A stretch of DNA of 64,000 bases, taken from positions 1 to 64,000 of the forward strand of contig CAJTAK010000008.1 in the NCBI GenBank assembly GCA_910574255.1. The letters run 5' to 3'. The notes beneath the pieces are model-generated. The model searched no databases and was not told the origin of the DNA. It saw nothing but the letters and a program-made list of their open reading frames with translations. This document shows, piece after piece, positions 42,138 through 49,949 of the stretch (within the stretch, counting starts at the first letter, position 1; each line of letters starts with the position of its first letter). The position numbers and the translations under genes were made by a program. This DNA is from Clostridia bacterium (GTDB lineage: Bacteria; Bacillota; Clostridia; Lachnospirales; Lachnospiraceae).

Positions 42138-42181
42138 ATGTGTAAAATAATCGCAATCGCAAACCAGAAAGGCGGTGTGGG
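42138..42181 (+). pseudogene. parA: parA, 5' fragment
   Basis: Encodes MCKIIAIANQKGGVG, the start of a Walker-type ParA, then runs into the inserted RIT element and stops at 42194. The break falls in the deviant Walker A motif KGGVGKTT. The rest resumes at 49152 (GKTTTTSN). Removing the insert restores one continuous frame. Confidence 0.93.
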
Positions 42182-42279
42182 TTATGAAAAGTAAGTTATT
42201 ATGCAAAGTTGAGCCTACACTTTTGCTGATTTTATAGGGTATAGGCTCTTTTGAACTTTGCATAATCAGGAGTAAACCC

Positions 42280-42502
42280 TTACAAAGATTTCAACCAATC
42301 AAGAAGGTCTTTATCCTTTTTCCACGCTGGCAGTTCGTCAGATGATGGACTGTTGTAAGCTTCCATCAATGCTTTCCGCTTCATTTTTTCGTCTGCCCGT
42401 GCGTAGATTTCGGTTGTTGAAATATCAGAGTGTCCCAGTAGATCTCTGATATAAACAAGATTGACTCCGGACTGAAGCAGATGCATTGCTTTGCTATGGC
42501 GA
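42280..42502 (-). pseudogene. RIT-A RitC, 3' fragment
   Basis: C-terminal part of the third recombinase: [43 protein letters not shown] reading (upstream of the first Met at 42486) with the His of LLGH and the nucleophile Tyr of TEIYA. The N-terminal part is at 46015-46803. The cut lies in the HxxR catalytic box (HWFRH in the rebuilt gene), so RitC of RIT-A is dead. Confidence 0.9.
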
Positions 42503-42522
42503 AAATGGGGAGCTCCCCATTT
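42503..42522. repeat. perfect 20-bp palindrome at the left RIT-B junction
   Basis: AAATGGGGAGCTCCCCATTT, two head-to-head copies of the RIT-B terminal motif (compare GTAAAATGGGGAG in the terminal repeat). It lies between the host fragment and the terminal inverted repeat. The outer element has the same feature on its right side. Confidence 0.8.
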
Positions 42523-42613
42523 GAGGCATTATGGGGAGTGAAGTAAAATGGGGAGTCCTTTAAAAAAATCCCATATTTTCGTATGTTTCTGATAAAATCA
42601 CTCCCCATTTTAC
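42522..42613. repeat. RIT-B left terminal inverted repeat
   Basis: 92 bp, identical to the inverse of 45923-46013 except for one extra T in a T-run (91 of 92). It contains its own internal inverted repeat, with GTAAAATGGGGAGT at the outer side and ACTCCCCATTTTAC at the inner side. Confidence 0.92.
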
Positions 42614-42659
42614 ACTGGTGGTTATAAACCACTAATCCTGTCGGGAAACTTATCCTGTT

Positions 42660-46803: not shown

Positions 46804-47776
46804 GGCATACCTCCGGGATGACGTATGCACATGACCTTTCCACTTCCCTCATCAGGTCTGGATAAACTTCCGCTGTCAGGCGCAGATACCTTGCTGTTGA
46901 GCGTATTGTTTTGTGCCCCATATATGTGGAAAGAATCGGGAGCATAGCCGTTAAATCGGCTTCTTCCCTGATCCACTTTTGTAAAACATGAACCGCGAAT
47001 GTATGGCGTACATCATGCAGACGGGGGCCCTGCCCTTTTCCGCCATGTGAAATCCCTGCCGCTTCCAGATACCTGCGGTACCTTTGATAGATAGTCATCG
47101 GGCTGATCATGGTCTTATCAGGAGCAGGGAAGAAAAAGTCGCTGTCTTTTTCCCACCAGATTTTATCTGCATAGGATATACAGGCTTCTTTTACGGAATC
47201 TGATAATGGGATATACCGGTCACGGTCAGTCTTTGCTTCACGGATCGTAAGAATCCCATCTTCGAGATTCACATCCCTGCAGCGAAGTCCGACAACTTCT
47301 GACACACGAAGTCCACAGCCATAAAGAATCCGGAAGATTACGGGTAACGCCAGATGCATATTTCTTGCAACTTCTTTGGGTTCTGTTTCATCAGCGGCTT
47401 TGATCACAGCTGCTATCTGCTCATGCGTAAATATATATGGTACAAATGAACTGTGATTCAAACCCTTCACTTCTGGCACGATATAAGCATCATAACCAAG
47501 GTTATTAAGGTATATGGCAAACTGTCTTATGCAGGTAATGCGGTGTGACCGGCTTTTTTCGGATTCACCTGCCCGGGGCGCTGTCCATTTTTCCGCAAGG
47601 GAGCGGGATATTTTTATTTCTGTGACACCCTGTTCTTCACTGAAACGGCAAAACCGGGATAAACATTTCGGTTCATCTGCATATTTAAAACCTGTGCTTC
47701 TTTTGTACTGAATGAATTCCTGGGCAACTTCCGCAAATGAACCTGTCATGGATGGAGATTTTCTGATTCTTGTCAT
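46790..47776 (-). CDS. RIT-A RitB tyrosine recombinase
   Basis: 328 aa from 47776; the ATG overlaps the RitA stop as TAATG, with GGAGGTGGC 9 nt upstream. Arg in ILYGCGLRVSEVVGLRCRDV, Lys in REAKTDRDRYIP, HxxR in LHDVRHTFAVHVL, His in YMGHKTIRSTARYLRL, Tyr in ARYLR. Intact, but its RitC partner is broken, so RIT-A can probably move only with help in trans. Confidence 0.9.
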   Translation of the reverse strand: MTRIRKSPSMTGSFAEVAQEFIQYKRSTGFKYADEPKCLSRFCRFSEEQGVTEIKISRSLAEKWTAPRAGESEKSRSHRITCIRQFAIYLNNLGYDAYIVPEVKGLNHSSFVPYIFTHEQIAAVIKAADETEPKEVARNMHLALPVIFRILYGCGLRVSEVVGLRCRDVNLEDGILTIREAKTDRDRYIPLSDSVKEACISYADKIWWEKDSDFFFPAPDKTMISPMTIYQRYRRYLEAAGISHGGKGQGPRLHDVRHTFAVHVLQKWIREEADLTAMLPILSTYMGHKTIRSTARYLRLTAEVYPDLMREVERSCAYVIPEVCHEGN

Positions 47777-48987
47777 TAGATTGCCACCTCCAATGCACAT
47801 TTCCGAAGCTCGGTGATATCAATACGAAGATATGCCATCGTAGTTTCAGTAGTTGTGTGCCCCAGGATTTCTGAAATGACCGGAAGCGGAATCTCATGCT
47901 CCAACAGGCGGCTCGCAAGGCTGTGGCGGAGTGTGTGGGAGCCTTTCTTTTTCCCTTCAAGATGGATTCCCGATCTCTGGAGACGTACCCTTACAAGGGC
48001 GCCGACCGCACCCGGATTGAAATCCGTATAAGGAGGAAGCTGCCTCACAAAAACGTGATCCGAGTCGGTTTTAGGCCTTGCGTTCTTCAGATAGTTAATG
48101 ATCGCTTCGCCAACATCTTCTAAAAGAGGAAGTTCTAACGGATTTCCTGTTTTTACCTGGTTCAAATGGATTACTTCTCTTTCCCAGTCGATATTGGAAA
48201 ACCTTAAATTTGCGACATCGCTGCTGCGTAATCCAAGTCTTGCAATCAGAAGAATGATTGCATAATCACGGATTCCGCAAGGATTCCCAAGGTCAATCGA
48301 ATCAAGAAGTTTCGTCACCTCATTCGCTGAATACGAAGAAGGTAATCGGCTCTGCCTGTTGTAATGAGGGTTTGGAAGTTTTGAAAACATCTCCTGCTCC
48401 ATAAGACCATGTTCATAGCAGTATTTCAGATAATAGCGCACCGCACGCATTGTATGATTTATGGTTGGCTTTTCATAACAGTTCAAAGATGCCATGAAAT
48501 CCAAAACGTCTTTGAGAGACAGTGTATCTAAAGAAGCAATGTTCTTCCTGCTTAAAAACGCAAAAAAGCGTTCCAGATATAAACTGAAAATCTTATTTGA
48601 TTTTTTTATTATCCCGATATCTTCTCGATGGGAAATATATGCTTCTGCGCTATATCTAAATCCCTCTGGGAAAGTGTACGCTCTTTTATCCATGGCAAGA
48701 TAAAGAACTACATTCCCTGAACGCTGGTATTCTGCCAAAGCATTTATACAACGGGAATAGGCGGTACACCATTTTTTCAACGCTATCTTAGATGACATGG
48801 AATAATGGTCTTCTAAAAACTGTAATCCGAAATCCATGCTGAAAGAATCAGTACCTTGTTCGTGGGAGTAGAGCAAAAGCTGTTTTGTAAGAGTTTTAAA
48901 TACTTTTTGGTAATAGCTGGATGCACCTACCTGTACGAGTGCTTCCCCGGTTTGGTTGATCAGTTGCTGCAAAGTTGATTTTTCCAT
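47776..48987 (-). CDS. RIT-A RitA tyrosine recombinase
   Basis: 403 aa from 48987 (TAAGGAGGAACGCACG upstream; the Met at 49023 lacks a Shine-Dalgarno). Arg in LIARLGLRSSDVANLRFSNI, Lys in QVKTGNPLELP, HxxR in GSHTLRHSLASRL, His in EILGHTTTETTMAYLRI, Tyr in MAYLR. Same architecture as RIT-B RitA but clearly diverged. Confidence 0.9.
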   Translation of the reverse strand: MEKSTLQQLINQTGEALVQVGASSYYQKVFKTLTKQLLLYSHEQGTDSFSMDFGLQFLEDHYSMSSKIALKKWCTAYSRCINALAEYQRSGNVVLYLAMDKRAYTFPEGFRYSAEAYISHREDIGIIKKSNKIFSLYLERFFAFLSRKNIASLDTLSLKDVLDFMASLNCYEKPTINHTMRAVRYYLKYCYEHGLMEQEMFSKLPNPHYNRQSRLPSSYSANEVTKLLDSIDLGNPCGIRDYAIILLIARLGLRSSDVANLRFSNIDWEREVIHLNQVKTGNPLELPLLEDVGEAIINYLKNARPKTDSDHVFVRQLPPYTDFNPGAVGALVRVRLQRSGIHLEGKKKGSHTLRHSLASRLLEHEIPLPVISEILGHTTTETTMAYLRIDITELRKCALEVAI

Positions 48988-49127
48988 CGTGCGTTCCTCC
49001 TTAAGCGAATTGATAAAATACACTTAAATCTTGATGGATTATGGAAAGTAAATCAACTAAAGAATCCTTTATTTATAAGGATTTCTTTCATTAACTTTGC
49101 ATAATGTATAGCTTTTCATAACCGACA

Positions 49128-49147
49128 TTATGTGAAGCTTCACATAA
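49128..49147. repeat. perfect 20-bp palindrome at the right RIT-A junction
   Basis: TTATGTGAAGCTTCACATAA, related to the RIT-A terminal motif TTATGAAAAG. It lies between the terminal inverted repeat and the parA sequence, mirroring the palindrome at the RIT-B left junction. Confidence 0.8.
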
Positions 49148-49151
49148 CGTT

Positions 49152-49949
49152 GGCAAGACCACCACCACAAGCAATTTAGGCATAGGACTTGCAAAACAGG
49201 GAAAGAAAGTGCTTTTGATTGATGCGGACGCACAGGGCAGTCTGACCGCAAGTTTAGGCTTTACAGAGCCGGACAGTCTGGAAGTCACGCTTGCAACCAT
49301 TATGGGGAACTTAATCAATGACGGGGAAGTAGAGCCGGGAGAAGGCATTCTCCACCATGAGGGAGGGATAGACCTTATGCCGGGGAACATTGAACTTTCC
49401 GGTCTGGAAGTTTCCCTTGTGAATGTTATGAGCCGGGAAACGGTACTCCGGTCATACATAGGGATTGTCCGGGAGAATTACGATTATATCTTGATTGATT
49501 GTATGCCTTCCCTCGGTATGATTACCATAAATGCCTTTGCCAGCGCCGACAGCATCTTGATACCCGTACAGGCGGCATATCTGCCCGTCAAAGGCTTGCA
49601 GCAGCTTATTAAGACAGTCGGCAAGGTAAAGCGGCAGATTAACCCGAAACTGGAGATTGAGGGGATTCTGCTTACAATGGTAGACAGCCGGACGAATTAC
49701 GCAAAGGACATCAGCGCCATGCTGAAGGAGGCATACGGAAGCCGGGTGAGGATATTTGCCAATGTCATTCCCATTTCCGTCCGGGCGGCGGAGATTTCAG
49801 CGGAGGGTGTCAGCATCTACAAGCATGATCCAAAGGGGAAAGTAGCGTCAGCCTATGATTCTCTGACAAAGGAGGTAATCACCTCTGCTCGTCAGGATGA
49901 CTCGCACTTTGCTCCGCAAAGCAAGGAGGTGAGCGCAGATGGGCAGTAA
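49152..49949 (+). pseudogene. parA: parA, 3' fragment
   Basis: Resumes at GKTTTTSNLGIGLAKQGK and holds the rest of ParA: switch LLIDADAQGSLTASLGF, YILIDCMPSLGMITINAF and VDSRTNYAKDISAML. An internal Met (49209) could start a 246-aa product without the P-loop Lys, which would not bind ATP properly. parB overlaps its 3' end by 11 bp. Loss of ParA would affect segregation of the circular form unless supplied in trans. Confidence 0.92.

Follow-up and report, generated by a model that had tools for sequence, protein, structure and literature searches.

Why should two recombinase-in-trio (RIT) elements, one lying inside the other, each break a gene at the codons of a catalytic motif? The question is raised by a 64,000-nucleotide stretch of a Clostridia bacterium genome (contig CAJTAK010000008.1, positions 1 to 64,000; the window), in which two trios of recombinase genes on the minus strand are nested at 42138-49949. 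The outer element, RIT-A, interrupts parA at its Walker A motif and, without its insert but with its carried hexamer counted, measures 3,462 bp; the inner one, RIT-B (3,510 bp), interrupts ritC of RIT-A at catalytic box II. Both breaks follow a rule common to their relatives and are not coincidences of nesting. Comparison of many RITs points to lineage-specific targeting of motif codons, recombination across a 6-bp overlap and a hexamer carried along from an earlier site, a model that we hold with considerable confidence. This target rule is the finding of interest, RITs themselves having long been known as recombinase trios.

Uninterrupted forms were found for both inner levels of the nest. 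A contig from a viral collection (L039) carries a RIT-A that is 99.3% identical over 3,122 bp, lacks RIT-B and is 3,462 bp long, the same length as the window copy minus RIT-B; its ritC is an open frame of 352 codons. The genome of the window also has a second, uninterrupted parA (L280), 98% identical, in which the split point reads AAAGGCGG-TGTGGG-CAAGACC. These two sequences represent the empty sites of RIT-B and RIT-A, and they identify the hexamers at the plain ends, tgtggg (RIT-A) and gaggca (RIT-B), as the targets' own. Judging by the empty sites, both elements are probably mobile.

The original prediction had described four levels of nesting (a RIT in a RIT in the parA of an island in spmA), with breaks at Walker A and at box II, and had called for relatives that lack one or the other RIT. 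All four levels are present in the sequence, junctions and empty sites agree on both breaks, and L039 and the 98% identical parA are such relatives. The motif restored on paper for ritC, PHWFRHSK, needs correction, because the uninterrupted ritC of L039 has PHWLRHSK, with L and not F. Repeat decay had been expected to give the order of events and their ages. The order can be read; the mismatches between the end repeats of RIT-A are identical in L039 and the window, so they did not arise by decay after insertion, and as a clock they give no ages.

The two elements have ends of the same build. By comparison, each RIT end consists of a 10-bp arm and a 6-bp spacer, and one end carries in addition a palindrome in which two arms meet head to head. 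The parA junction reads AAAGGCGG-tgtggg-TTATGAAAAG at the plain end and CTTTTCATAA-ccgaca-TTATGTGAAGCTTCACATAA-cgttgg-CAAGACC at the palindrome end; the ritC junction reads CATTGGCT-gaggca-TTATGGGGAG and CTCCCCATAA-tgcctc-AAATGGGGAGCTCCCCATTT-tcgcca-TAGCAAAG. Comparison with the empty sites shows that the plain end retains the hexamer of the target, whereas the hexamer at the palindrome end is foreign. The foreign hexamers, cgttgg and tcgcca, would still encode the same residues as the targets, G-V-G and L-R-H, respectively. The nest comprises the following features.

42138..42175, plus strand: N-half of parA, its last codons being Walker A AAAGGCGG (from the uninterrupted copy in the same genome)
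42176..42181, plus strand: target hexamer tgtggg, retained at the plain (ritC) end of RIT-A (identical hexamer in the uninterrupted parA L280)
42182..49147, or to 49153 with the carried hexamer, minus strand: RIT-A with RIT-B inside
42280..42496, minus strand: C-half of ritC of RIT-A
42497..46006, minus strand: RIT-B, carried hexamer included
42497..42502, minus strand: foreign (carried) hexamer tcgcca of RIT-B
42503..42522, no strand: palindrome of RIT-B, AAATGGGGAGCTCCCCATTT
42660..43694, minus strand: ritC of RIT-B, own box II HVFRHS
43681..44649, minus strand: ritB of RIT-B
44646..45884, minus strand: ritA of RIT-B
46007..46012, minus strand: target hexamer gaggca of RIT-B, plain end
46013..46830, minus strand: N-half of ritC of RIT-A, up to the box II codons
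46790..47800, minus strand: ritB of RIT-A
47776..49023, minus strand: ritA of RIT-A
49122..49127, plus strand: internal hexamer of RIT-A, whose reverse complement, tgtcgg, fits G-V-G too
49128..49147, no strand: palindrome of RIT-A, TTATGTGAAGCTTCACATAA
49148..49153, plus strand: foreign (carried) hexamer of RIT-A, cgttgg, palindrome end (natural parA genes have it at this position)
49154..49949, plus strand: C-half of parA

Gene content and ends place both elements among the RITs. Three adjacent, overlapping tyrosine recombinase genes, ritA-ritB-ritC, lie on one strand, their products follow the order RitA, RitB, RitC as typed by mutual similarity, and the same RitA query retrieves annotated proteobacterial trios; the lengths of 3,462 and 3,510 bp, about 3,500 bp, come with terminal inverted repeats and an overlapping palindrome. 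Residues R161, H263, R266, H289 and Y298 of RitC, which we take to be catalytic, are invariant in 14 rows, and for RitA and RitB the catalytic type is assigned by Pfam PF00589 match only. Each element is filled by three PF00589 genes in place of the gene set of the SE elements (no search was aimed at tfp or srap), and its three recombinases of 322-415 amino acids are not the Tn554-like set of a large recombinase, an ordinary one and TnpC. The 6-bp footprint of the SE elements is present, with the target hexamer at one end and the carried hexamer at the other. An added domain in RitA and a C-terminal helix in RitC are among the type traits described in the available part of an earlier study (PMC8138268).

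Relatives of RIT-A repeat its choice of site. Among sites readable on at least one side, which leaves out L240 and L241 (no host flank) and L243 (a fragment), eight of ten RIT-A-type insertions lie at the Walker A motif of ParA (window, L039, L083, L239, L242, L320, L324 and L325). RitA is 64-99% identical to that of RIT-A in those of the eight measured whole, the copies of genome G510 having broken frames. These insertions occupy different parA genes, in both orientations: the trio of L039 is reversed relative to the window, with the palindrome at the ritC end, yet the palindrome still lies on the K-T-T side of the target. The remaining two insertions, L317 and L318, lie in an apparent coiled-coil gene and an apparent ribosome-binding site; they rule out strict ParA-only targeting and indicate that DNA is recognised, not a gene, and that recognition is leaky. 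All three G510 copies (L317, L318 and L320) have tttaga at the palindrome end, the same hexamer that L317 has as its target; this shared hexamer is the most direct sign that a hexamer may be carried from a donor site. RIT-A-type hexamers fit G-V-G or G-T-G in 19 of 25 cases, and the Walker A pattern was present in 28 of 30 parA loci, whose hexamers include five found in RIT-A copies.

A partly blind check came from searching 392 genomes of the order for the RIT-A-type palindrome pattern, with targets assigned by our reading. The pattern occurs at 21 places in 14 genomes; reversed, it was absent from the matches listed for the same 392 genomes. Four of the 21 places are ParA (window included), five are the tyrosine box of a recombinase (one tentative), one is a reverse transcriptase (RT) motif, one another Walker A, and two are the off-target sites L317 and L318.

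RIT-B belongs to a supported group on the RitC tree (window, L041, L154, L156 and L316), and all five readable sites of this clade lie at R-H of box II of tyrosine recombinases. The hosts are ritC-type genes in the window, L041 and L154, an integrase in L156, and another recombinase, judged from 28 residues only, in L316. L154 (6417-13700) holds a second natural RIT-in-RIT nest, with a RIT-B-like element in the ritC of a RIT that itself sits inside an amidoligase gene, at a motif also occupied by L040 and L087. Two Rhizobiales RITs, elsewhere on the tree, use the same box II; the RIT of pNGR234a is inserted in ritC of another RIT, and that of Rhizobium leguminosarum shows box II on one side only. 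Hexamers at box II match the R-H codons in 18 of 18 cases, the two Rhizobiales RITs included, with a chance of 0.6% each. A scan of viral contigs with RitA of RIT-B returned no relative. The nest is thereby explained: RIT-A brought the target of RIT-B in its own ritC. That self-nesting would inform target choice, as had been anticipated, is borne out by these relatives; the hexamer footprint, the palindrome and the shared rule had not been part of that expectation. Four of the five clade members have F before R-H in box II of their own RitC and the three ritC-type victims have L, so that most of the clade may escape its own attack through F for L. A general escape by F was discarded, because L156 has L in its own box II, together with a hexamer that fits.

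The wider survey covered 186 loci, which yielded 117 trios in 115 loci and 85 elements with a terminal repeat above the cut-off; host flank proteins of 39 of the 85, picked for long frames, were scanned against Pfam. Transposases, IstB, recombinases or reverse transcriptases account for 20 of the 39 hosts, four of them (L048, L103, L114 and L143) through DDE or RT matches below the curated cut-off. Adding ParA, relaxase, RadC, topoisomerase, amidoligase, PcfK, DUF4314, methylase and phage proteins brings the mobile or mobile-associated hosts to 34 of 39, a count in which amidoligase, RadC, topoisomerase and DUF4314 are included by our judgement and phage genes are favoured, part of the loci being from a viral collection. 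Outside the 34 are L044 and L116 (no family), L199 (a spurious family), and L110 and L113 (DUF6273). In the cases read, the break falls within a conserved motif: HSDQGS of IS3, NNAAERA of IS66, Walker A of IstB, TPQGG of a group II intron, HNHPSG of RadC and AEKPSVA of TopB. A phage portal gene is also among the targets; L115 is flanked by a relaxase on one side and a response regulator on the other, which makes its host gene doubtful. A distant second RIT in the genome of the window (L048; contig C6, ~169920-173310) interrupts a DDE transposase-like gene at LYVDNGSP; the hexamers on its two sides are identical. On contig C3 of this genome, a pair of PF00589 recombinase genes near 263-265 kb resembles another pair 103 kb away, near 366-368 kb, and the two may represent a duplicated two-gene element.

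The orientation of the trio is free, the palindrome lying next to ritC in 16 and next to ritA in 13 of 29 non-redundant elements (33 of the 85 had the strict arm-6-palindrome-6 geometry automatically, before removal of duplicates). By our reading of a curated set (27 elements, 16 targets), the palindrome lies on the C-terminal side of the target in 21 elements and on the N-terminal side in six, all of them of the RT and TopB classes. Insertions flanked by two like halves of a gene were considered as exceptions and dropped as such, their palindromes agreeing with this polarity: L042 and L316 have two C-halves and two palindromes; L143 and L156 have two N-halves and no palindrome seen, one side of L156 being degenerate; and L094 has two N-halves and two palindromes, consistent with its RT class. 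All five fit what recombination between two inverted copies would produce.

We propose that the three tyrosine recombinases recombine a circular form of the element with a target in which a 6-bp overlap lies between two half-sites. In the circle, the joint would consist of two head-to-head core sites around the palindrome, either of which could recombine, so that two earlier hexamers would persist; being head to head, the joint would allow the trio to enter either way round while keeping the palindrome on a fixed side of the target. The foreign hexamer would originate in the donor site, as has been described for SE elements and Tn554, and the three recombinases would divide the labour. Each RIT lineage would recognise the coding DNA of a single conserved motif, often a catalytic one and mostly from another mobile gene; RIT-A would read Walker A of ParA, and RIT-B the R-H box of tyrosine recombinases. 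On this model RIT-A would have entered parA first and RIT-B would have entered RIT-A second, because the ritC of RIT-A holds its target.

Several points weigh against the model. Strict geometry was automatic in just the 33 elements; of the 52 others, some fit by eye and many are unsettled, including L054, L099, L104, L108, L116, L131 and L157. Two of the ten RIT-A-type sites are not ParA, six of the 25 RIT-A-type hexamers misfit G-V/T-G, eight of the 21 palindrome places have no clear target, and the related RITs L110 and L113 lie in DUF6273 proteins, whose genes are not obviously mobile. We drew up the curated table and assigned the target labels ourselves, not blind, and near copies help the count on the tree. 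The circle, the excision and the transposition are proposed from sequence comparison. Some of these points suit a reading in which the recombinases read DNA half-sites only, the motif mattering through its constant codons, and RITs are not aimed at mobile genes. The DUF6273 targets speak for it, as does the off-target site L318, which has AAAGG-GG in common with the left half-site of parA; against it, the share of mobile or mobile-associated hosts, viral loci and judged families included, is one that random conserved genes would not be expected to give. We regard this reading as a serious contender, at somewhat less than an even chance.

The hexamers themselves bear on whether a 6-bp target-site duplication at insertion, followed by mutation, could have given two similar hexamers. 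In the 29 non-redundant elements, the hexamers of the two host junctions match at 4.72 of 6 positions, compared with 1.67 when shuffled and a highest value of 2.79 in 20,000 shuffles. Within the curated set, whose junction strings matched the loci exactly in 53 of 54 when checked against the sequences, they are identical on both sides in 9 of 27 elements, as a duplication would leave them, and differ in 18. Differences fall at codon position 3 in 26 of 34 cases (p = 3e-7), or in 15 of 21 with one element per target (p = 4e-4). In the 19 elements that share one reading phase, 21 of 29 differences cluster at hexamer positions 1 and 4; in the eight of the other phase, all five fall at positions 3 and 6. 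Since the positions shift with reading phase, coding, more than position in the overlap, decides. Later mutation in a broken gene should not favour the wobble position, and the G510 copies share a hexamer that is foreign to two of their three targets. Duplication with decay was rejected on the wobble bias, and we consider it improbable; with differences at wobble positions, the foreign hexamers resemble a record of homologous targets entered earlier.

On a RitC tree of 54 rows, the 25 target classes need 26 changes, close to the minimum of 24; shuffled labels need 43.5 on average, and 0 of 200 shuffles were as low as 26. With L156 and L316 added (56 rows), 27 changes are needed compared with 44.6 after shuffling; both trees are quick ones. 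Random landing in mobile DNA, with catalytic motifs hit by chance and no target rule, draws on the general tendency of mobile islands to gather insertions and on the two RIT-A-type sites outside ParA, but it is very hard to reconcile with target classes that track this tree and with eight of ten and five of five insertions that share motif and register in different host genes. An assembly artefact is just as implausible: the genome is a draft of 78 contigs, and contigs L040, L045, L046, L051 and L052 of other genomes are barely longer than a RIT, but RitA of RIT-A and RitA of RIT-B have one match each above 40% identity in the window genome, which makes a repeat collapse improbable, and the same type of nest occurs in L154 and in the complete plasmid pNGR234a.

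Beyond the targeting model, we tentatively suggest that RITs are homing parasites of mobile genes, which would hit the unchangeable codons of catalytic motifs, kill the victim enzyme and keep a record of their last targets in the end hexamers, with some lineages (RIT-B and, separately, a Rhizobiales one) preying on the recombinases of other RITs. The L in box II of L156 lowered our estimate for this suggestion from an even chance to slightly below one.

The outermost level of the nest concerns spmA, interrupted at ~41137, the two parts of which are as follows.

40799..41137, plus strand: N-terminal part of spmA, cut by the island
~111,565-111,925, same contig, outside the window: C-terminal part of spmA

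The predicted island that cuts spmA is present, both parts of the gene lying on the same contig, the remaining part ~70 kb further on; its right boundary falls beyond the window. The C-terminal part was sought near spmB and was absent there, being located instead at ~111.6 kb. The island thus spans ~70 kb (contig C8, ~41137-111570; window part 41137-64000). Five long frames resembling large serine recombinases adjoin the C-terminal part of spmA, and frames at ~87-96 kb resemble a surface-sugar cluster, both from reading frames and, for the recombinases, with no domain search. At 57759-60833 of the window, a phage-type integrase frame and a replication-initiator-like frame suggest a further element within the island.

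Homing introns and inteins likewise sit in conserved active-site codons, where their targets are always available; they differ in that they splice out and spare the host gene, and to our knowledge RITs do not splice. The transposition chemistry of Tn7 differs from that of RITs. In targeting there is a likeness, as TnsD at glmS reads DNA that encodes the active-site region of an enzyme and tolerates wobble variation; Tn7 inserts downstream of the gene, at one host target, whereas RITs break the motif (PMC2918618). Here and below, comparisons refer to the parts of the cited papers available to us. Proteobacterial RITs have been described as three overlapping tyrosine recombinase genes of ~3.5 kb with a terminal inverted repeat and an overlapping palindrome, some inside a transposase gene and a radC gene (PMC3414803). 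RIT-A and RIT-B have the same gene trio, size, repeat and palindrome; the footprint, the target rule and the reading of the palindrome are not given in the available part of that paper and are proposed here by comparison. SE elements and Tn554 are alike in the 6-bp overlap, the target and circle hexamers at opposite ends, the inverted end motifs and target specificity; SEs carry intA, tfp, intB and srap, whereas the RITs here have three full recombinases, an extra palindromic core site at one end, free orientation of the trio and a motif for each lineage (PMC10214605). GInts also have several integrases per operon, and their excision yields attachment-site variants that affect targeting; they differ in having four genes and cargo islands, with no motif-codon rule in the part available (PMC5385486). 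A table in a 2023 paper marks the target specificity and movement of RITs as not tested (PMC10214605), and among titles and abstract openings we found no published RIT target rule, although Ricker 2013, the main RIT phylogeny, may describe part of it.

The rule predicts where a RIT will land, its ends to the base and the form of the empty site, which turns mobility into a simple PCR question. It may also suggest why there are three recombinases, as four unlike half-sites would meet in the synapse. The carried hexamers would be a rare case of a transposon recording its past targets, and attacks by some mobile elements on the active sites of others would amount to a competition that is invisible to annotation.

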